From Methanoculleus sediminis (lineage in GTDB: Archaea > Halobacteriota > Methanomicrobia > Methanomicrobiales > Methanoculleaceae): DNA of 59,156 nt. The position numbers and the translations under genes are program-made. The notes beneath the pieces were generated by a model, which was given only the letters and a program-made list of their open reading frames with translations, did no database searches and was not told where the DNA came from. Location of the stretch: contig NZ_JXOJ01000008.1 of assembly GCF_001017125.1 (NCBI RefSeq), positions 43,820 to 102,975 of the forward strand. Direction: 5' to 3'. This document shows positions 36,259 to 41,588 of this stretch, piece after piece (within the stretch, counting starts at the first letter, position 1; the number at the start of each line of letters is the position of its first letter).

Positions 36259-36840
36259 ATGCCGAAGGTCGTGCCCGAGTATAAAGACGAAGCGAGGCGC
36301 AGGATCATCGAGGCCGCGATAGCCGAGGCGGACGAGAAGGGTTTTTCCAACCTGAAGATGGAGGACGTCGCCGGCAGGCTCGGCATCTCCCGCGCGACGC
36401 TCTACCTCTACGTCAGAAGCAAAGAGGATCTCGTCTCTTCCGCTCTCGTCTATATCCGGTCCCGGCTCTCGGAGAGTCTGCGGGACGCCTGCTCCAGGAA
36501 TACTCTCGATGGCACGTTCTCCGCGATCTTCGATAACGTCATCTACCCCAAAGGCGGAACGGGGATGAAGGCGGTCGTCGAACTCTTCGCCGGTGCCGTG
36601 CGGGACGACTCCCTCCGTGCAGCCGTCGGGAAGAATTACCGCGCCATCCACGATCTGATCGCCTCGGTTCTTGAAGATGAAAAAGCCGCGGGGCACCTCC
36701 CAGAAGACCTCGATGCGGAACTCTCTGCAAGCATCCTCATCTCCGTCATCCTCGGGATCAGGATGGGAGCGGCGGCAGGGCTCGAACGGGACGAGGCGCA
36801 CCGGATCTGGGAGGGCGCCGTCCGGCGGATACTGGAATGA
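36259..36840 (+). CDS. TetR/AcrR family transcriptional regulator
   Basis: 193 residues. Residues 10-56 form the TetR HTH: RRRIIEAAIAEADEKGFSNLKMEDVAGRLGISRATLYLYVRSKEDL, in pieces IIEAAIAEA, MEDVAGRLGIS, ATLYLYV. The helical ligand-binding C-terminal domain has no clear known ligand type. The ATG is 6 nt past an operator-like palindrome and 30 nt past a TATA box, so it appears leaderless. Divergent from the 95-residue protein / RND operon, it probably represses that exporter and itself, released by the compound exported. Confidence 0.9.
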   Translation: MPKVVPEYKDEARRRIIEAAIAEADEKGFSNLKMEDVAGRLGISRATLYLYVRSKEDLVSSALVYIRSRLSESLRDACSRNTLDGTFSAIFDNVIYPKGGTGMKAVVELFAGAVRDDSLRAAVGKNYRAIHDLIASVLEDEKAAGHLPEDLDAELSASILISVILGIRMGAAAGLERDEAHRIWEGAVRRILE

Positions 36841-36862
36841 ACGGTCCCTCCTGCACGAAGGT

Positions 36863-38212
36863 ATGCCGAACAAGGAGTTATCCCGTAACCGGGAGATGTT
36901 AGAGAGAATGTCTTCCCCGCCTATCCGCCATCCCGCACCTGCCTTCGACGTCTTCAACGTCTACTTCGAGCGTATCTACGATCCGACGATGCACGTCGTC
37001 TTCGCACTCGACGGTGAAGTCGACGCGGGGGCCATGAGGGCGGCGACGATGAGGCTCGTTGCGTCCGATCCCTACCTCCGGTCGAGGTTCGCGGAGGTTG
37101 ACGGACAGCCGGTCTGGGAAGAGATCCCGGAGGAACGGTGGGACGGGGCATTCGTCCTCGTCCCGGCCGGCGGGGACGAGCCCCTCCACGCGCCCCCGCC
37201 GCCGCTCGACGTCCGCTCCGGGCCGCAGGTGCAGGTCAACCTCTACCGGAGGGAAGAGGGGGATACCGTGGCCGTCACCTGCCACCACGGCTTCTGCGAC
37301 GCCACCGGCGCCCTCACCCTTGCCCGGGACCTCTTTGCGGCCTACCGGCGGATCGTGGACGAGCCCGGGTTCCGGCCGGCCCCCCGCGCCCCTTACGAGC
37401 GGAGCACGGAGAGGGTTCTTGCGCTCTACTCCGAAGAGGAGCGGCAGCAGGCGCTCGCGCAGGAGGAGCCGTTCGTCGACCGGTGGCGCTTCCCCGTCGA
37501 GCGAACCGGGAGGGGGACGCCCCGGGTGGCCTCCCGGACGCTCTCCCCCGAAAGGCTCGGGCACATAAAGGCGTTCGGGAGAGGGCACGGGGCTACGGTG
37601 AACGACGTCCTCATCGCTGCGTTCTTCCTTGCGTTCCAGAAGATCCGGAACGACCCCTCCGACCGGGGAGCACCCCGGTCGCTCCTGACCTCGGCCGATC
37701 TGCGGAGGAGGTATACCGGCCTCTACGAGGACTCTCCGCTCACGAACCTCTCCATCGCCTACGAGGTCACCCTCTCCGCCGGGGAGGGGGCCCGGCTCGA
37801 GGAGGTCATCGGCCGGGTGACGGCGATAACGGCTCGCAAAAAGGCAGGGAGCCTCGGTCTCGCGCCTATCCTCTTCTACGAGGAGATCATCGCGGGCGGG
37901 ATGCCGGCGGTGCGGACGTTCTTCGACGGGATGATCGAGCGGTATGAGACGTCCGGACAGAAGAACCCGGTCTTCTCGAACCTCGGGGTCTTCGACCCCG
38001 GCGATTACCTCCCCATCCCCGGGAAGGACGTTGCGGCGCTTGATATCCGGGAGATCCGGTACCTCCCCTGCGCCTGCTGGCCGTACGGGTTTTTGATGAT
38101 CGCCTCCACCTTCCGCGACCGCCTGACCCTCGCCACGGCCTACGAGGAAGGGCCCTACTCGACGGCCGTCGTGGAGCGGTACCTCGAATACGTGGACGGG
38201 TATCTCCCGTGA
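36863..38212 (+). CDS. Condensation-domain / acyltransferase-like protein
   Basis: 449 residues of the CoA-dependent acyltransferase fold seen in NRPS condensation domains and alcohol acetyltransferases. The catalytic HHxxxD motif is present as CHHGFCDATGALTL at about residues 138-151, and the second conserved region is TVNDVLIAAFFLAFQKI, then the late NPVFSNLGVFDP. It is a stand-alone enzyme without NRPS partners, so an acyl or acetyl transfer is the more probable role; the acceptor is unknown. It begins 22 nt after tetR on the same strand, perhaps co-transcribed. Later ATGs at 36896 and 36908 cannot be excluded. Confidence 0.72.
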   Translation: MPNKELSRNREMLERMSSPPIRHPAPAFDVFNVYFERIYDPTMHVVFALDGEVDAGAMRAATMRLVASDPYLRSRFAEVDGQPVWEEIPEERWDGAFVLVPAGGDEPLHAPPPPLDVRSGPQVQVNLYRREEGDTVAVTCHHGFCDATGALTLARDLFAAYRRIVDEPGFRPAPRAPYERSTERVLALYSEEERQQALAQEEPFVDRWRFPVERTGRGTPRVASRTLSPERLGHIKAFGRGHGATVNDVLIAAFFLAFQKIRNDPSDRGAPRSLLTSADLRRRYTGLYEDSPLTNLSIAYEVTLSAGEGARLEEVIGRVTAITARKKAGSLGLAPILFYEEIIAGGMPAVRTFFDGMIERYETSGQKNPVFSNLGVFDPGDYLPIPGKDVAALDIREIRYLPCACWPYGFLMIASTFRDRLTLATAYEEGPYSTAVVERYLEYVDGYLP

Positions 38213-38311
38213 GGGGGGCCCGTACGATTCGCGCGACAGAGCCGCATATCACTCGAAATCGATGCGCAGCCTTCCGAAATAGAATAAAAATCCTTTTCTC
38301 GCGGCCGGTGA

Positions 38312-39637
38312 ATGAATTACTGTGGTTTAATGGATTGTAAGGCGACGCGAGAGGGAAAAGTCCTGGTGGTATCCGCAGTCGGAAGGCTGGACGGATTCGG
38401 TGCGGAGAAAGTCAACGATCTGCTGCGCTCTTACATGCATGAAACCGACAGTGCGGTCGTCGTCGACATGGGCGGCGTGGACTTCATGAGCTCGGCGGGG
38501 CTGCGGTTCTTCCAGTCGCTCTATACGACCATGAGGGAGCGCAACGGCCGGGTTGCCGTTGCCGGCCTCACCGAGTACCCCCGCAAAATATTCTCGATGG
38601 GCGGGTTTTTGAGAGTCATCGAGGAATTCCCCGATACAGGTGCGGCGCTCGCGGCTCTCCGGTTGGCCCTTGGCGAGGCAGACGAGAAAACCGTTTCCTT
38701 TACCCGGCGGGGAGGAGAAAGTGCGGCTCTCCGGTATGCAGGCAGCCTTCGGGCAGCGTATCTCGGGCCGTTCGCGAAAGAGGATATCACCGCGGTTCCC
38801 GCACCCGTCGGCGAATATATGGTCGGTATCGGGGCAGCCGCTCCGGGTCTCGAAGCGGCCGCCCCGCTCGTCGGCGAGATGCTCGGTATCCGCGGCACCG
38901 TCTATACCCTGACGGCGGACGGAAACCAGACACCGGACTACCTCCTCCCCGATCACCTCGAGGGCGGCGGCATCACGGTCGCGAGCGCTTTTCGCGTCGC
39001 CCTTGACGGCGGGTTCTCCACACAACTCACTATCGCGGCAGACGGCACGGAAGGAATCACGGTCCAGGATATCGTCGAGAAGGCTGCCGGTTACCTGAGC
39101 GGGAACCACCCCGAGTATACCGGCGTCTTCTCGTTCCTCCTGCGGGGCACCGTCCGCGGGATCTGCAGTGCGGACATCAAATCCTCGCTTCTTGCGGCGC
39201 ACCGTGCCGCCGCCGATGCAGAGAACCGGCAGTCGTCCGGCGGGATGCATTCGATGTACTTCGGGAGGAGGCCCGGCGCCCTCGTAGCCGACGATGTCAC
39301 CGCGACAGAGATCGAGCCGAGGTATGACGGGGAGACGCTCATCGCGTTCGGCTACGCCATCGACCTCGAACGGGCAGGATCGGCGGTCGATCCCGCACTC
39401 CTCGAACCGCTCTACTACACGCGGCCCGGCGCTCCGGCGGCTCCTTTCTTCATCTACGCGACGGGAGCGGTGTATACCGGCGTTCCTTACGTGGGGCCGG
39501 GCGTCCTCGAAGAAGGGATCGCGACCACCCTCGATGCGGGGAAGTTCGTTGCGCTCCACCACCTTCTCCCCATCTCGAAACTCCGGAACGCCACGGTAGG
39601 GATTGCACCGGTCACCCGGCTTGACCGGACCGCCTGA
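38312..39637 (+). CDS. STAS-domain protein with large C-terminal domain
   Basis: 441 residues. Residues 8-115 are a STAS (anti-anti-sigma factor) domain: VLVVSAVGRLDGFGAEKVNDLL, then AVVVDMGGVDFMSSAGLRFF, which keeps the Ser that is phosphorylated in SpoIIAA-type proteins (DFMSS). The remaining 320 residues form a domain I do not recognise (AAYLGPFAKEDITAVPAPVGEYMVG and following), perhaps a sensor or enzyme. A TATA-like AATAAAAAT lies 26 nt before the ATG. The next gene, 34 nt downstream, is a PP2C phosphatase of the kind that dephosphorylates STAS proteins. Confidence 0.8.
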   Translation: MNYCGLMDCKATREGKVLVVSAVGRLDGFGAEKVNDLLRSYMHETDSAVVVDMGGVDFMSSAGLRFFQSLYTTMRERNGRVAVAGLTEYPRKIFSMGGFLRVIEEFPDTGAALAALRLALGEADEKTVSFTRRGGESAALRYAGSLRAAYLGPFAKEDITAVPAPVGEYMVGIGAAAPGLEAAAPLVGEMLGIRGTVYTLTADGNQTPDYLLPDHLEGGGITVASAFRVALDGGFSTQLTIAADGTEGITVQDIVEKAAGYLSGNHPEYTGVFSFLLRGTVRGICSADIKSSLLAAHRAAADAENRQSSGGMHSMYFGRRPGALVADDVTATEIEPRYDGETLIAFGYAIDLERAGSAVDPALLEPLYYTRPGAPAAPFFIYATGAVYTGVPYVGPGVLEEGIATTLDAGKFVALHHLLPISKLRNATVGIAPVTRLDRTA

Positions 39638-39671
39638 CCGGGCAGGACGATCACGCACCGGACGAGGGGCG

Positions 39672-41588
39672 ATGAAACCAGCAGACGACCTGAACGGGGG
39701 CGCCGAAAACCCCGGCCGCTCGATCCAGGCCATCCTTGCGGCCTCCACCGCCCTCATCATCGTCGTCGTCATCGCTCTCGCGCTGACGGTCTCGTACCTG
39801 CAGGCAAGCGAGGATGCCGCCCGGGAGTATGACGCCCTCCGGTGGTACACCGAAGAGAACGGCGTCGCATCCGTCCGGCTCGTCGATAAGGGGCTCGGTC
39901 TCGTCGACGACGATCTCACGCCCGCCATGAAGGAGGGGCTCCTGGAGTTTTCCCGCGTATACGGCGCGGCGGGCAACGACCCCTCCGCCGTCGATCTGGA
40001 TGCCCTCAAAGACGAACTCGCACCCGGGTTTCCGGGCGAGCTGGACCTCTACATCATCGATGCCGACGGCATCATCCGTTATTCTACCGCCCCTGACGTT
40101 CTGGGGGTCGATTTCCGCCAGTATCCGGCGTTCTATACCCGGCTGACCGAGGTTCGCGAAGGGGACGCATTCACCGCCGACCGTGTCGTCCGCTCAATCG
40201 AGGACCATAGCGACCTGAACGTATCGGGGAGGCTCCGGAAGTTCGCCTACCTCCCGTCGCCCGACCATCGGTTCGTCCTCGAACTCGGGATCGATACGCC
40301 CGAGTTCTCCGACGTCCGTTCGCAGTTCTCCTACACCGACGTTGTCCGCATCCTGATGCAGAACAACCCGGATCTCGCCGGCGTCAGGATTGTCGATATC
40401 TACGGCAACATCGTCGCCGGAAACGAGACGGGAGGGATCGCAGACGCCGGGATCATGAGCGTCCTTGAGAACCGTGCCTCGGCGACGTTCGAGAATCCGG
40501 GAGTCCGTACGACGAGCCGGCTGGTCTTCATCGATCTCCGTGACCCGGCGACGGTGACCGACGGCAGTATGGTGCTGGAACTGATCTTCGACCGCTCCCG
40601 GCTCGATGCCGTCAGGGATCACCTGCTGGTCACCTACCTCCTCATCGGGCTTGCCGCCGCCCTGGTCGGGATCGCCCTCGCTTTCGGCCTCTCCCGCTAC
40701 GTCGGCACCGCCGTCGGAGCCGTCATCGACGATGCCGACCGTATCGCCGGAGGAGACCTCGATCACGCCATACGGGGTATGAACACGACGGAGTTCGTCC
40801 GGCTGGAGCGGAGCATTAACCGGATGGTGCAGCGGATCCGGCACTACAGCGAGGAGATCGAGCGGAAGGAGTCCGAACTCCGGATCGCCGCCGAGATCCA
40901 GACATCGTTTCTGCCCCGCAGGACCCCGGAGATCCCGGGGTGCGAGATCGCCGCGTTCACCTGCCCGGCGAAAGAGGTCGGAGGGGACTTTTACGATTTC
41001 GTCGACCTGGGAACTGGGCGATACGCCCTCGTCATCGCCGACGTTGCCGGGAAGGGCGTGCCGGCCGCGCTCTACATGGCGCTCGCCCGGACAACCGTGC
41101 GCACCGTCGCCCGGGGGTGCGGGGCCGTCTCGGAGACCGTCCGCCGTTCGAACGACACCATCATCGAGGATACGGGATCCGTCAGTTTCGTCACCCTCCT
41201 GTATGCGGTCTTCGACGAGGCACGCACCCTCACCTACGTCAACGCCGGCCACAACCCGCCCGTCCTCCGGCGGCGGGACGGATCGATGGAGACCCTGGAG
41301 CCGACCGGCCCGGTGATCGGGTTCCTCGAGGATGTGGAGTTCGAGGAGAGCACGATCACGCTTCGGCCCGGCGACCTCCTCGTCTTCTACACCGACGGCG
41401 TGACCGAGGCGGAGAACGGGGAGGGGATGATGTTCGGCGAGGAACGCCTTTACGCCGTCATCGAGGCCGCGGCCGGCCGCTGTGCCGACGAGGTCGCGGA
41501 AGCGATCCGGGGTGCCGTCGCCGCGTTTGCCGGCGAAGCCCCGCAGTTCGACGATATCACGGTCGTCGTGCTGCGGATCGGCGATTGA
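39672..41588 (+). CDS. Membrane sensor PP2C phosphatase (RsbU/SpoIIE-like)
   Basis: 638 residues: span at about 19-43, an extracellular Cache-like sensor domain at 45-315, second span near 316-340, HAMP at 340-395, then a SpoIIE-type PP2C domain from 415 on. Metal-binding motifs are EVGGDFYDFV, IADVAGKGVPAALYMAL and FYTDGVTEAENGEGMMFGEERL, with FDDITVVVL at the end. It would dephosphorylate Ser/Thr on a partner upon an external signal. The STAS-domain protein just upstream is the obvious partner. A matching anti-sigma-type kinase is not in the window. The ATG follows GAGGGGCG. Confidence 0.88.
   Translation: MKPADDLNGGAENPGRSIQAILAASTALIIVVVIALALTVSYLQASEDAAREYDALRWYTEENGVASVRLVDKGLGLVDDDLTPAMKEGLLEFSRVYGAAGNDPSAVDLDALKDELAPGFPGELDLYIIDADGIIRYSTAPDVLGVDFRQYPAFYTRLTEVREGDAFTADRVVRSIEDHSDLNVSGRLRKFAYLPSPDHRFVLELGIDTPEFSDVRSQFSYTDVVRILMQNNPDLAGVRIVDIYGNIVAGNETGGIADAGIMSVLENRASATFENPGVRTTSRLVFIDLRDPATVTDGSMVLELIFDRSRLDAVRDHLLVTYLLIGLAAALVGIALAFGLSRYVGTAVGAVIDDADRIAGGDLDHAIRGMNTTEFVRLERSINRMVQRIRHYSEEIERKESELRIAAEIQTSFLPRRTPEIPGCEIAAFTCPAKEVGGDFYDFVDLGTGRYALVIADVAGKGVPAALYMALARTTVRTVARGCGAVSETVRRSNDTIIEDTGSVSFVTLLYAVFDEARTLTYVNAGHNPPVLRRRDGSMETLEPTGPVIGFLEDVEFEESTITLRPGDLLVFYTDGVTEAENGEGMMFGEERLYAVIEAAAGRCADEVAEAIRGAVAAFAGEAPQFDDITVVVLRIGD

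Follow-up and report, generated by a model that had tools for sequence, protein, structure and literature searches.

What can a bacterial-type partner switch control in an archaeon? A 59,156-nucleotide stretch of the genome of Methanoculleus sediminis (hereafter, the window) encodes a STAS protein with a large additional C-terminal domain (X) and, immediately downstream, a membrane-bound SpoIIE-type PP2C phosphatase. According to Anderson et al. (2009; PMC2686161), archaea lack bona fide sigma factors, and genes for anti-sigma, anti-anti-sigma, and phosphatase proteins occur in Methanomicrobiales with their targets left open. An earlier note, made from the window alone, suggested that the two neighbouring genes might form a partner-switching pair and that X might be its output. 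We refer to the STAS protein as STASX. The features of the locus, in window coordinates, are as follows.

38275..38311, + strand: TATA-like element GAATAAAAATCCTTTT and a short leader, 5′ of the STASX gene
38312..39637, + strand: STASX gene, an open reading frame with orthologues elsewhere; 441 aa, a fusion of a STAS domain with a domain of predicted ALDC fold
38345..38641, + strand: STAS domain, residues 12–110, from a PF01740 match and a SpoIIAA fold match
38492..38494, + strand: codon of Ser61, the predicted phosphorylation site, aligned with Ser58 of SpoIIAA
38690..39634, + strand: X domain, residues 127–441, predicted ALDC/PTD012-type fold (VIA Z), with Tyr382-x-Thr384 in place of HxH
39672..41588, + strand: membrane sensor phosphatase, 638 aa, with two hydrophobic segments, a HAMP-like stretch, and a SpoIIE-type PP2C domain
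41011..41579, + strand: PP2C catalytic domain, residues 448–636 of the sensor phosphatase, from a PF07228 match

Both open reading frames proved to be as the earlier note had described them. The phosphatase gene starts 34 bp beyond the end of the STASX gene on the same strand, with an ATG at position 39672 (a longer form starting from a TTG at 39603 is possible). Close orthologues of STASX, with 70–90% identity, were present in seven further genomes, and the phosphatase gene lay 3′ of STASX on the same strand in 8/8 genomes from two genera, a count that comprises M. sediminis and the seven others and includes one genome (G010) whose contig holds just the C-terminal end. The check on neighbours in related genomes that had been set for the pair thus came out in its favour. 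Among the orthologues, dN/dS ranged from 0.24 to 0.47 for the STAS domain and from 0.18 to 0.29 for the X domain, which is under purifying selection. Because adjacency is kept in every genome with a close orthologue and dN/dS is low, the arrangement is not a product of chance, and we conclude that the two genes are a real, conserved partner-switching pair. The TATA-like element upstream of STASX was retained in all seven aligned orthologous loci, where the flanking DNA has diverged, and judging from this pattern in the sequence is the probable promoter of the pair itself.

The individual parts of the switch were recognizable by several tests. First, the STAS domain scored 59 bits against PF01740 (cut-off 22.6) and 57.6 against TIGR00377 (cut-off 53.45), which places it in the STAS/anti-sigma-factor antagonist superfamily, and the model of STASX matched the fold of SpoIIAA with a Z score of 19.9; against the equivalog model for SpoIIAA proper (TIGR02886), STASX scored 42.7, below the cut-off of 114.75. 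In the alignment, Ser61 falls on Ser58 of SpoIIAA, the residue that is phosphorylated in that protein. The phosphoserine region had been called intact, and Ser60 and Ser61 are indeed both present; Ser60 is invariant, and serine occupies position 61 in 75 of the 76 family members, so the conservation on which the earlier reading was made to depend is well established. Second, the sensor phosphatase scored 181.5 bits against PF07228 (cut-off 25) and has intact acidic motifs (GGDFYDF, ADVAGKG, TDGVTEA, and FDDITVVV). Its hydrophobic segments span residues 15–47 and 316–343, with a faint dCache match between them, and its HAMP match of 24.0 bits falls slightly below the cut-off of 25. The best NCBIfam match of this phosphatase was SiaA (NF038263), at 80.7 bits against an equivalog cut-off of 700. 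The SiaA-SiaB-SiaC-SiaD system of Pseudomonas aeruginosa resembles the present one in being a sigma-independent partner switch, but the window phosphatase is far below the SiaA cut-off, its partner has a classical STAS domain, and no diguanylate cyclase output was seen.

Third, we searched the genome for an RsbW-type kinase. The observation that no kinase lies nearby holds for the window, but the genome does encode one: a single free-standing RsbW-type protein (HATPase_c_2, 102 bits), on a different contig (C8, 757394–757801), in a STAS-SpoIIE-RsbW operon. The kinase of a partner switch is therefore present in the same genome as the window pair, although not beside it. All other HATPase_c_2 matches in the genome were weak and fell within longer frames. 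As this protein is the only RsbW, it presumably serves the window pair as well, and three STAS proteins and two PP2C phosphatases probably share it. The SpoIIE protein of the C8 operon (~749–758 kb, locus L071) is of the 5TM-LYT type. The third STAS gene lies 6–7 kb from that operon on the opposite strand, with the same spacing in other Methanoculleus genomes, and between them stands a gene whose product combines four PAS domains with an HTH.

We favour, with a probability of about 0.6, a reading in which the window pair provides the sigma-free partner-switching network of the cell, with its single RsbW, with a second branch for input. In the switch that we infer, with its phosphorylation, binding, and output steps, an extracytoplasmic signal would act on the membrane phosphatase (39672–41588), which would strip phosphate from Ser61 of STASX (38312–39637), and the single RsbW, encoded elsewhere, would rephosphorylate this residue. 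Unphosphorylated STASX would be able to bind RsbW and would therefore compete for this kinase with the remaining STAS proteins, and the phosphorylation state of Ser61 would gate the C-terminal ALDC-fold domain.

What kind of domain is X? It comprises about 318 residues C-terminal to the STAS domain and had been described as of unknown kind. As a description from sequence this was fair, since Pfam and PDB sequence searches with X gave no match; a dedicated search of 25 X domains with PF03306, up to an E-value of 10, also matched none. The fold, however, can be identified from structural models. An AlphaFold model of the window STASX had a pLDDT of 76, and its C-terminal part matched ALDC with VIA Z scores of 15–16.3 over ~200 residues. 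The X domain of a Methanofollis homologue (L117), modelled with 64 sequences, reached a pLDDT of 91.3; in a Foldseek search of the PDB its top hits were fourteen ALDC chains (E 7e-10 to 3e-7), followed by PTD012. VIA Z scores for this model were 19.2 for ALDC (205 residues, rmsd 2.7), 15.1 for PTD012, 8.5–10.6 for the PPC/AF0104 group, and below 4 for all else. According to these models, X has the ALDC/PTD012 fold. Profile-profile comparison of X with ALDC by hhalign aligned just GEM..DG with GEL..DG as a short anchor (P 0.0009–0.0045), and in a column-shuffle control 1 of 60 shuffles scored 27.3 versus 27.4 for the real profile. Sequence-level support for homology of X to ALDC is thus weak, and the fold therefore carries the claim. 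Our first guess from motifs, a degenerate PP2C fold, was dropped once the structure matched ALDC.

The metal site of ALDC, which consists of a glutamate and three zinc-binding histidines, has a putative counterpart in much of the family. Among 76 members, the glutamate of the GEM motif is present in 72, the first histidine of HxH in 65 and the second in 63, and a later histidine in 74; going by motif order, these residues would correspond to the ALDC glutamate and its three zinc ligands, and in most relatives they are expected to bind metal. In the window STASX, Tyr382-x-Thr384 replaces HxH, with Glu189 and His417 retained, and the full set of glutamate, HxH, and histidine is thus absent. The window clade groups, with a support of 0.92 but on long branches that make the placement uncertain, with fusions in which X is followed by a TCAD9 domain and which likewise lack HxH. 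Other STAS-X-TCAD9 fusions, from the same phylum but outside the order, keep most of the motif. TCAD9 domains, which resemble kinases, are known from conflict systems. As part of the metal site is missing from the window clade, X is there most likely a regulatory domain that binds a ligand or a protein, rather than an enzyme, and the fusion to TCAD9 in relatives together with the loss of HxH favours the same non-enzymatic role. Linkage to RsbW and the fusions to STAS and TCAD9 speak for a regulatory role of X, which may be either output or input.

The linkage to RsbW recurs in the wider family. Proteins that combine STAS and X occur across Methanomicrobiales and also in Verrucomicrobia, Opitutales, and one Dehalococcoidia bin, and in every complete case examined X was fused to STAS. 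Across 150 Methanomicrobiales genomes, 60 have both X and RsbW, one has X alone, 21 have RsbW alone, and 68 have neither (Fisher p = 1.4e-22, without correction for descent); X and RsbW were also associated when counted by genus (p = 0.0015) and within Methanoculleus (p = 0.0005). Genes for X and RsbW lie ≤400 bp apart in 22 genomes of the order. The order STAS-SpoIIE-RsbW-STASX is found in G002, G030, and Methanofollis (L117), STASX is convergent with RsbW-SpoIIE in Methanoregula, and Verrucomicrobia show SpoIIE-RsbW-STASX. As 21 genomes carry RsbW without X, STASX is an optional client of the switch and not its universal or sole target. Proteins of ~790–850 aa with the architecture STAS-X-TCAD9 are encoded at L169–L173 in other Methanomicrobiales and at L178–L179 outside the order, and the gene at L179 is near SpoIIE and RsbW genes. 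Taking the family as a whole, we tentatively suggest, at somewhat less than even odds, that the kinase and phosphatase of a partner switch act directly, in archaea and in certain bacteria, on a domain of ALDC fold that is fused to STAS and serves as the effector. This sigma-free output would be extended by TCAD9 in some lineages, and the window clade would be a branch in which the metal site disappeared and a membrane phosphatase dedicated to the protein was added.

The alternative that survives best, which we nevertheless consider unlikely, makes X an input. STASX would then act like the stressosome protein RsbR with its domain order reversed: X would bind a small metabolite and bias STAS toward or away from RsbW, the PP2C phosphatase would reset the system, and the output of the network would lie elsewhere. 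A pocket-forming fold that stays under purifying selection even with part of its metal site gone in the window clade would fit such a role, as would the 21 genomes with RsbW and no X, in which the network must have another output, and the relatives that place X between STAS and a kinase-like TCAD9 domain. On the other side, no ligand is known, and the membrane phosphatase is already a dedicated sensor, which leaves a second sensor in its target unneeded. RsbR itself resembles STASX in that STAS is fused to a second, possibly signal-sensing domain, but it has an N-terminal sensor and a C-terminal STAS domain, whereas in the window protein STAS is N-terminal and its partner is ALDC-like.

It is less probable still that X has metal-dependent enzymatic activity, as a decarboxylase or ester hydrolase under the control of STAS phosphorylation, with the window clade as an inactive branch. 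The predicted ALDC and PTD012 fold and the retention of the glutamate, HxH, and histidine in most main-clade members are what such an enzyme would require, but X has no PF03306 match, no conserved residue of X answers to the invariant arginine of ALDC, and HxH is missing in the window clade. Moreover, the genome encodes a genuine, separate ALDC, which was the only PF03306 match in a whole-genome search. Comparably improbable is an autonomous pair, served by a different, unseen kinase and without ties to the C8 RsbW. The location of RsbW on another contig and the compactness of the conserved unit, with its conserved upstream element, are consistent with this idea; all eight genomes with a pair of the window type also carry RsbW, however, and both the weakness of the remaining HATPase_c_2 matches, set in longer frames, and the adjacency of the wider STASX family to RsbW in 22 genomes argue for RsbW as the partner. 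Finally, we give very little credence to local control of the acyltransferase encoded next door, a condensation-domain protein, and of what it makes. Control of this kind was proposed for nonribosomal peptide synthetase (NRPS) clusters of Methanobrevibacter ruminantium, whose genome paper places serine phosphatase, STAS, and RsbW genes beside such clusters (PMC2812497). The condensation gene does adjoin STASX here and in four relatives from Methanoculleus, but in the second genus (G036 and G037) the pair stands without it; in addition, the pair is preceded by a conserved element of its own, and STASX paralogues in other genomes have different neighbours.

Of known systems, the SpoIIE-SpoIIAA-SpoIIAB and RsbU-RsbV-RsbW switches of Bacillus share with the favoured network a SpoIIE-type PP2C, a STAS protein with the serine, and an RsbW-type kinase in the genome; the present network differs in that archaea have no sigma factor, STAS is fused to an ALDC-fold domain, and the kinase is encoded at another locus. 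X resembles ALDC (AlsD/BudA) and PTD012/C11orf54 in its modelled fold and, in the main clade, in its glutamate and histidine motifs. Compared with ALDC, it lacks a PF03306 match and a conserved equivalent of the invariant arginine, is fused to STAS, and in the window copy has no HxH. A partner switch as such is not new here, because genes for one, a three-gene STAS-SpoIIE-RsbW module, were reported in this order in 2009 (PMC2686161), and a module of the same type is found on contig C8 of this genome; a STAS-ALDC-like protein and a second, dedicated sensor phosphatase are not described in the text available from that report. The class of system is thus known, also in this order; what is new is a variation on it, a STAS-ALDC-fold client that has a sensor phosphatase to itself. 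The openly licensed papers searched yielded no report of a STAS-ALDC-like protein, which is weak evidence of novelty. STASX is a candidate for the target of archaeal partner switches, a question that has stood since 2009: it is genetically linked to the switch, X almost never occurs without RsbW in the order, its gene adjoins RsbW in archaea and Verrucomicrobia, and the serine is present. It may also represent an enzyme fold recruited into serine-phosphorylation signalling in both archaea and bacteria.

Several minor observations concern the surroundings of the pair and of its relatives. The condensation-domain (PapA-like) acyltransferase gene lies directly upstream of the pair (36824–38212, + strand), and genes for a TetR protein and an MMPL exporter are found farther upstream; the acyltransferase gene was rejected as a member of the core unit because the second genus has the pair without it. 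A search of 40 genomes from the family for a free-standing TCAD9 kinase that could act in trans gave no match above the cut-off, and weak hits of ~286 aa are probably RIO-type kinases. No X domain was found in the viral contigs searched. The order's one X-bearing genome without RsbW (G038, contig C96, L038) has a decayed STASX gene with in-frame stops, and contig C1 of G129 carries a decayed copy of the same kind. In a Verrucomicrobia locus (L128, 2335–8825, + strand), genes for a dCache hybrid histidine kinase, a response regulator, a receiver-SpoIIE phosphatase, RsbW, and STASX are consecutive, an array that reads as a two-component cascade feeding a partner switch. At L059 (1536–5828, + strand) and similar Methanoculleus loci, a gene for a ~1430-aa HEAT-repeat protein often adjoins, on the other strand, that of the second and more distant paralogue of STASX.
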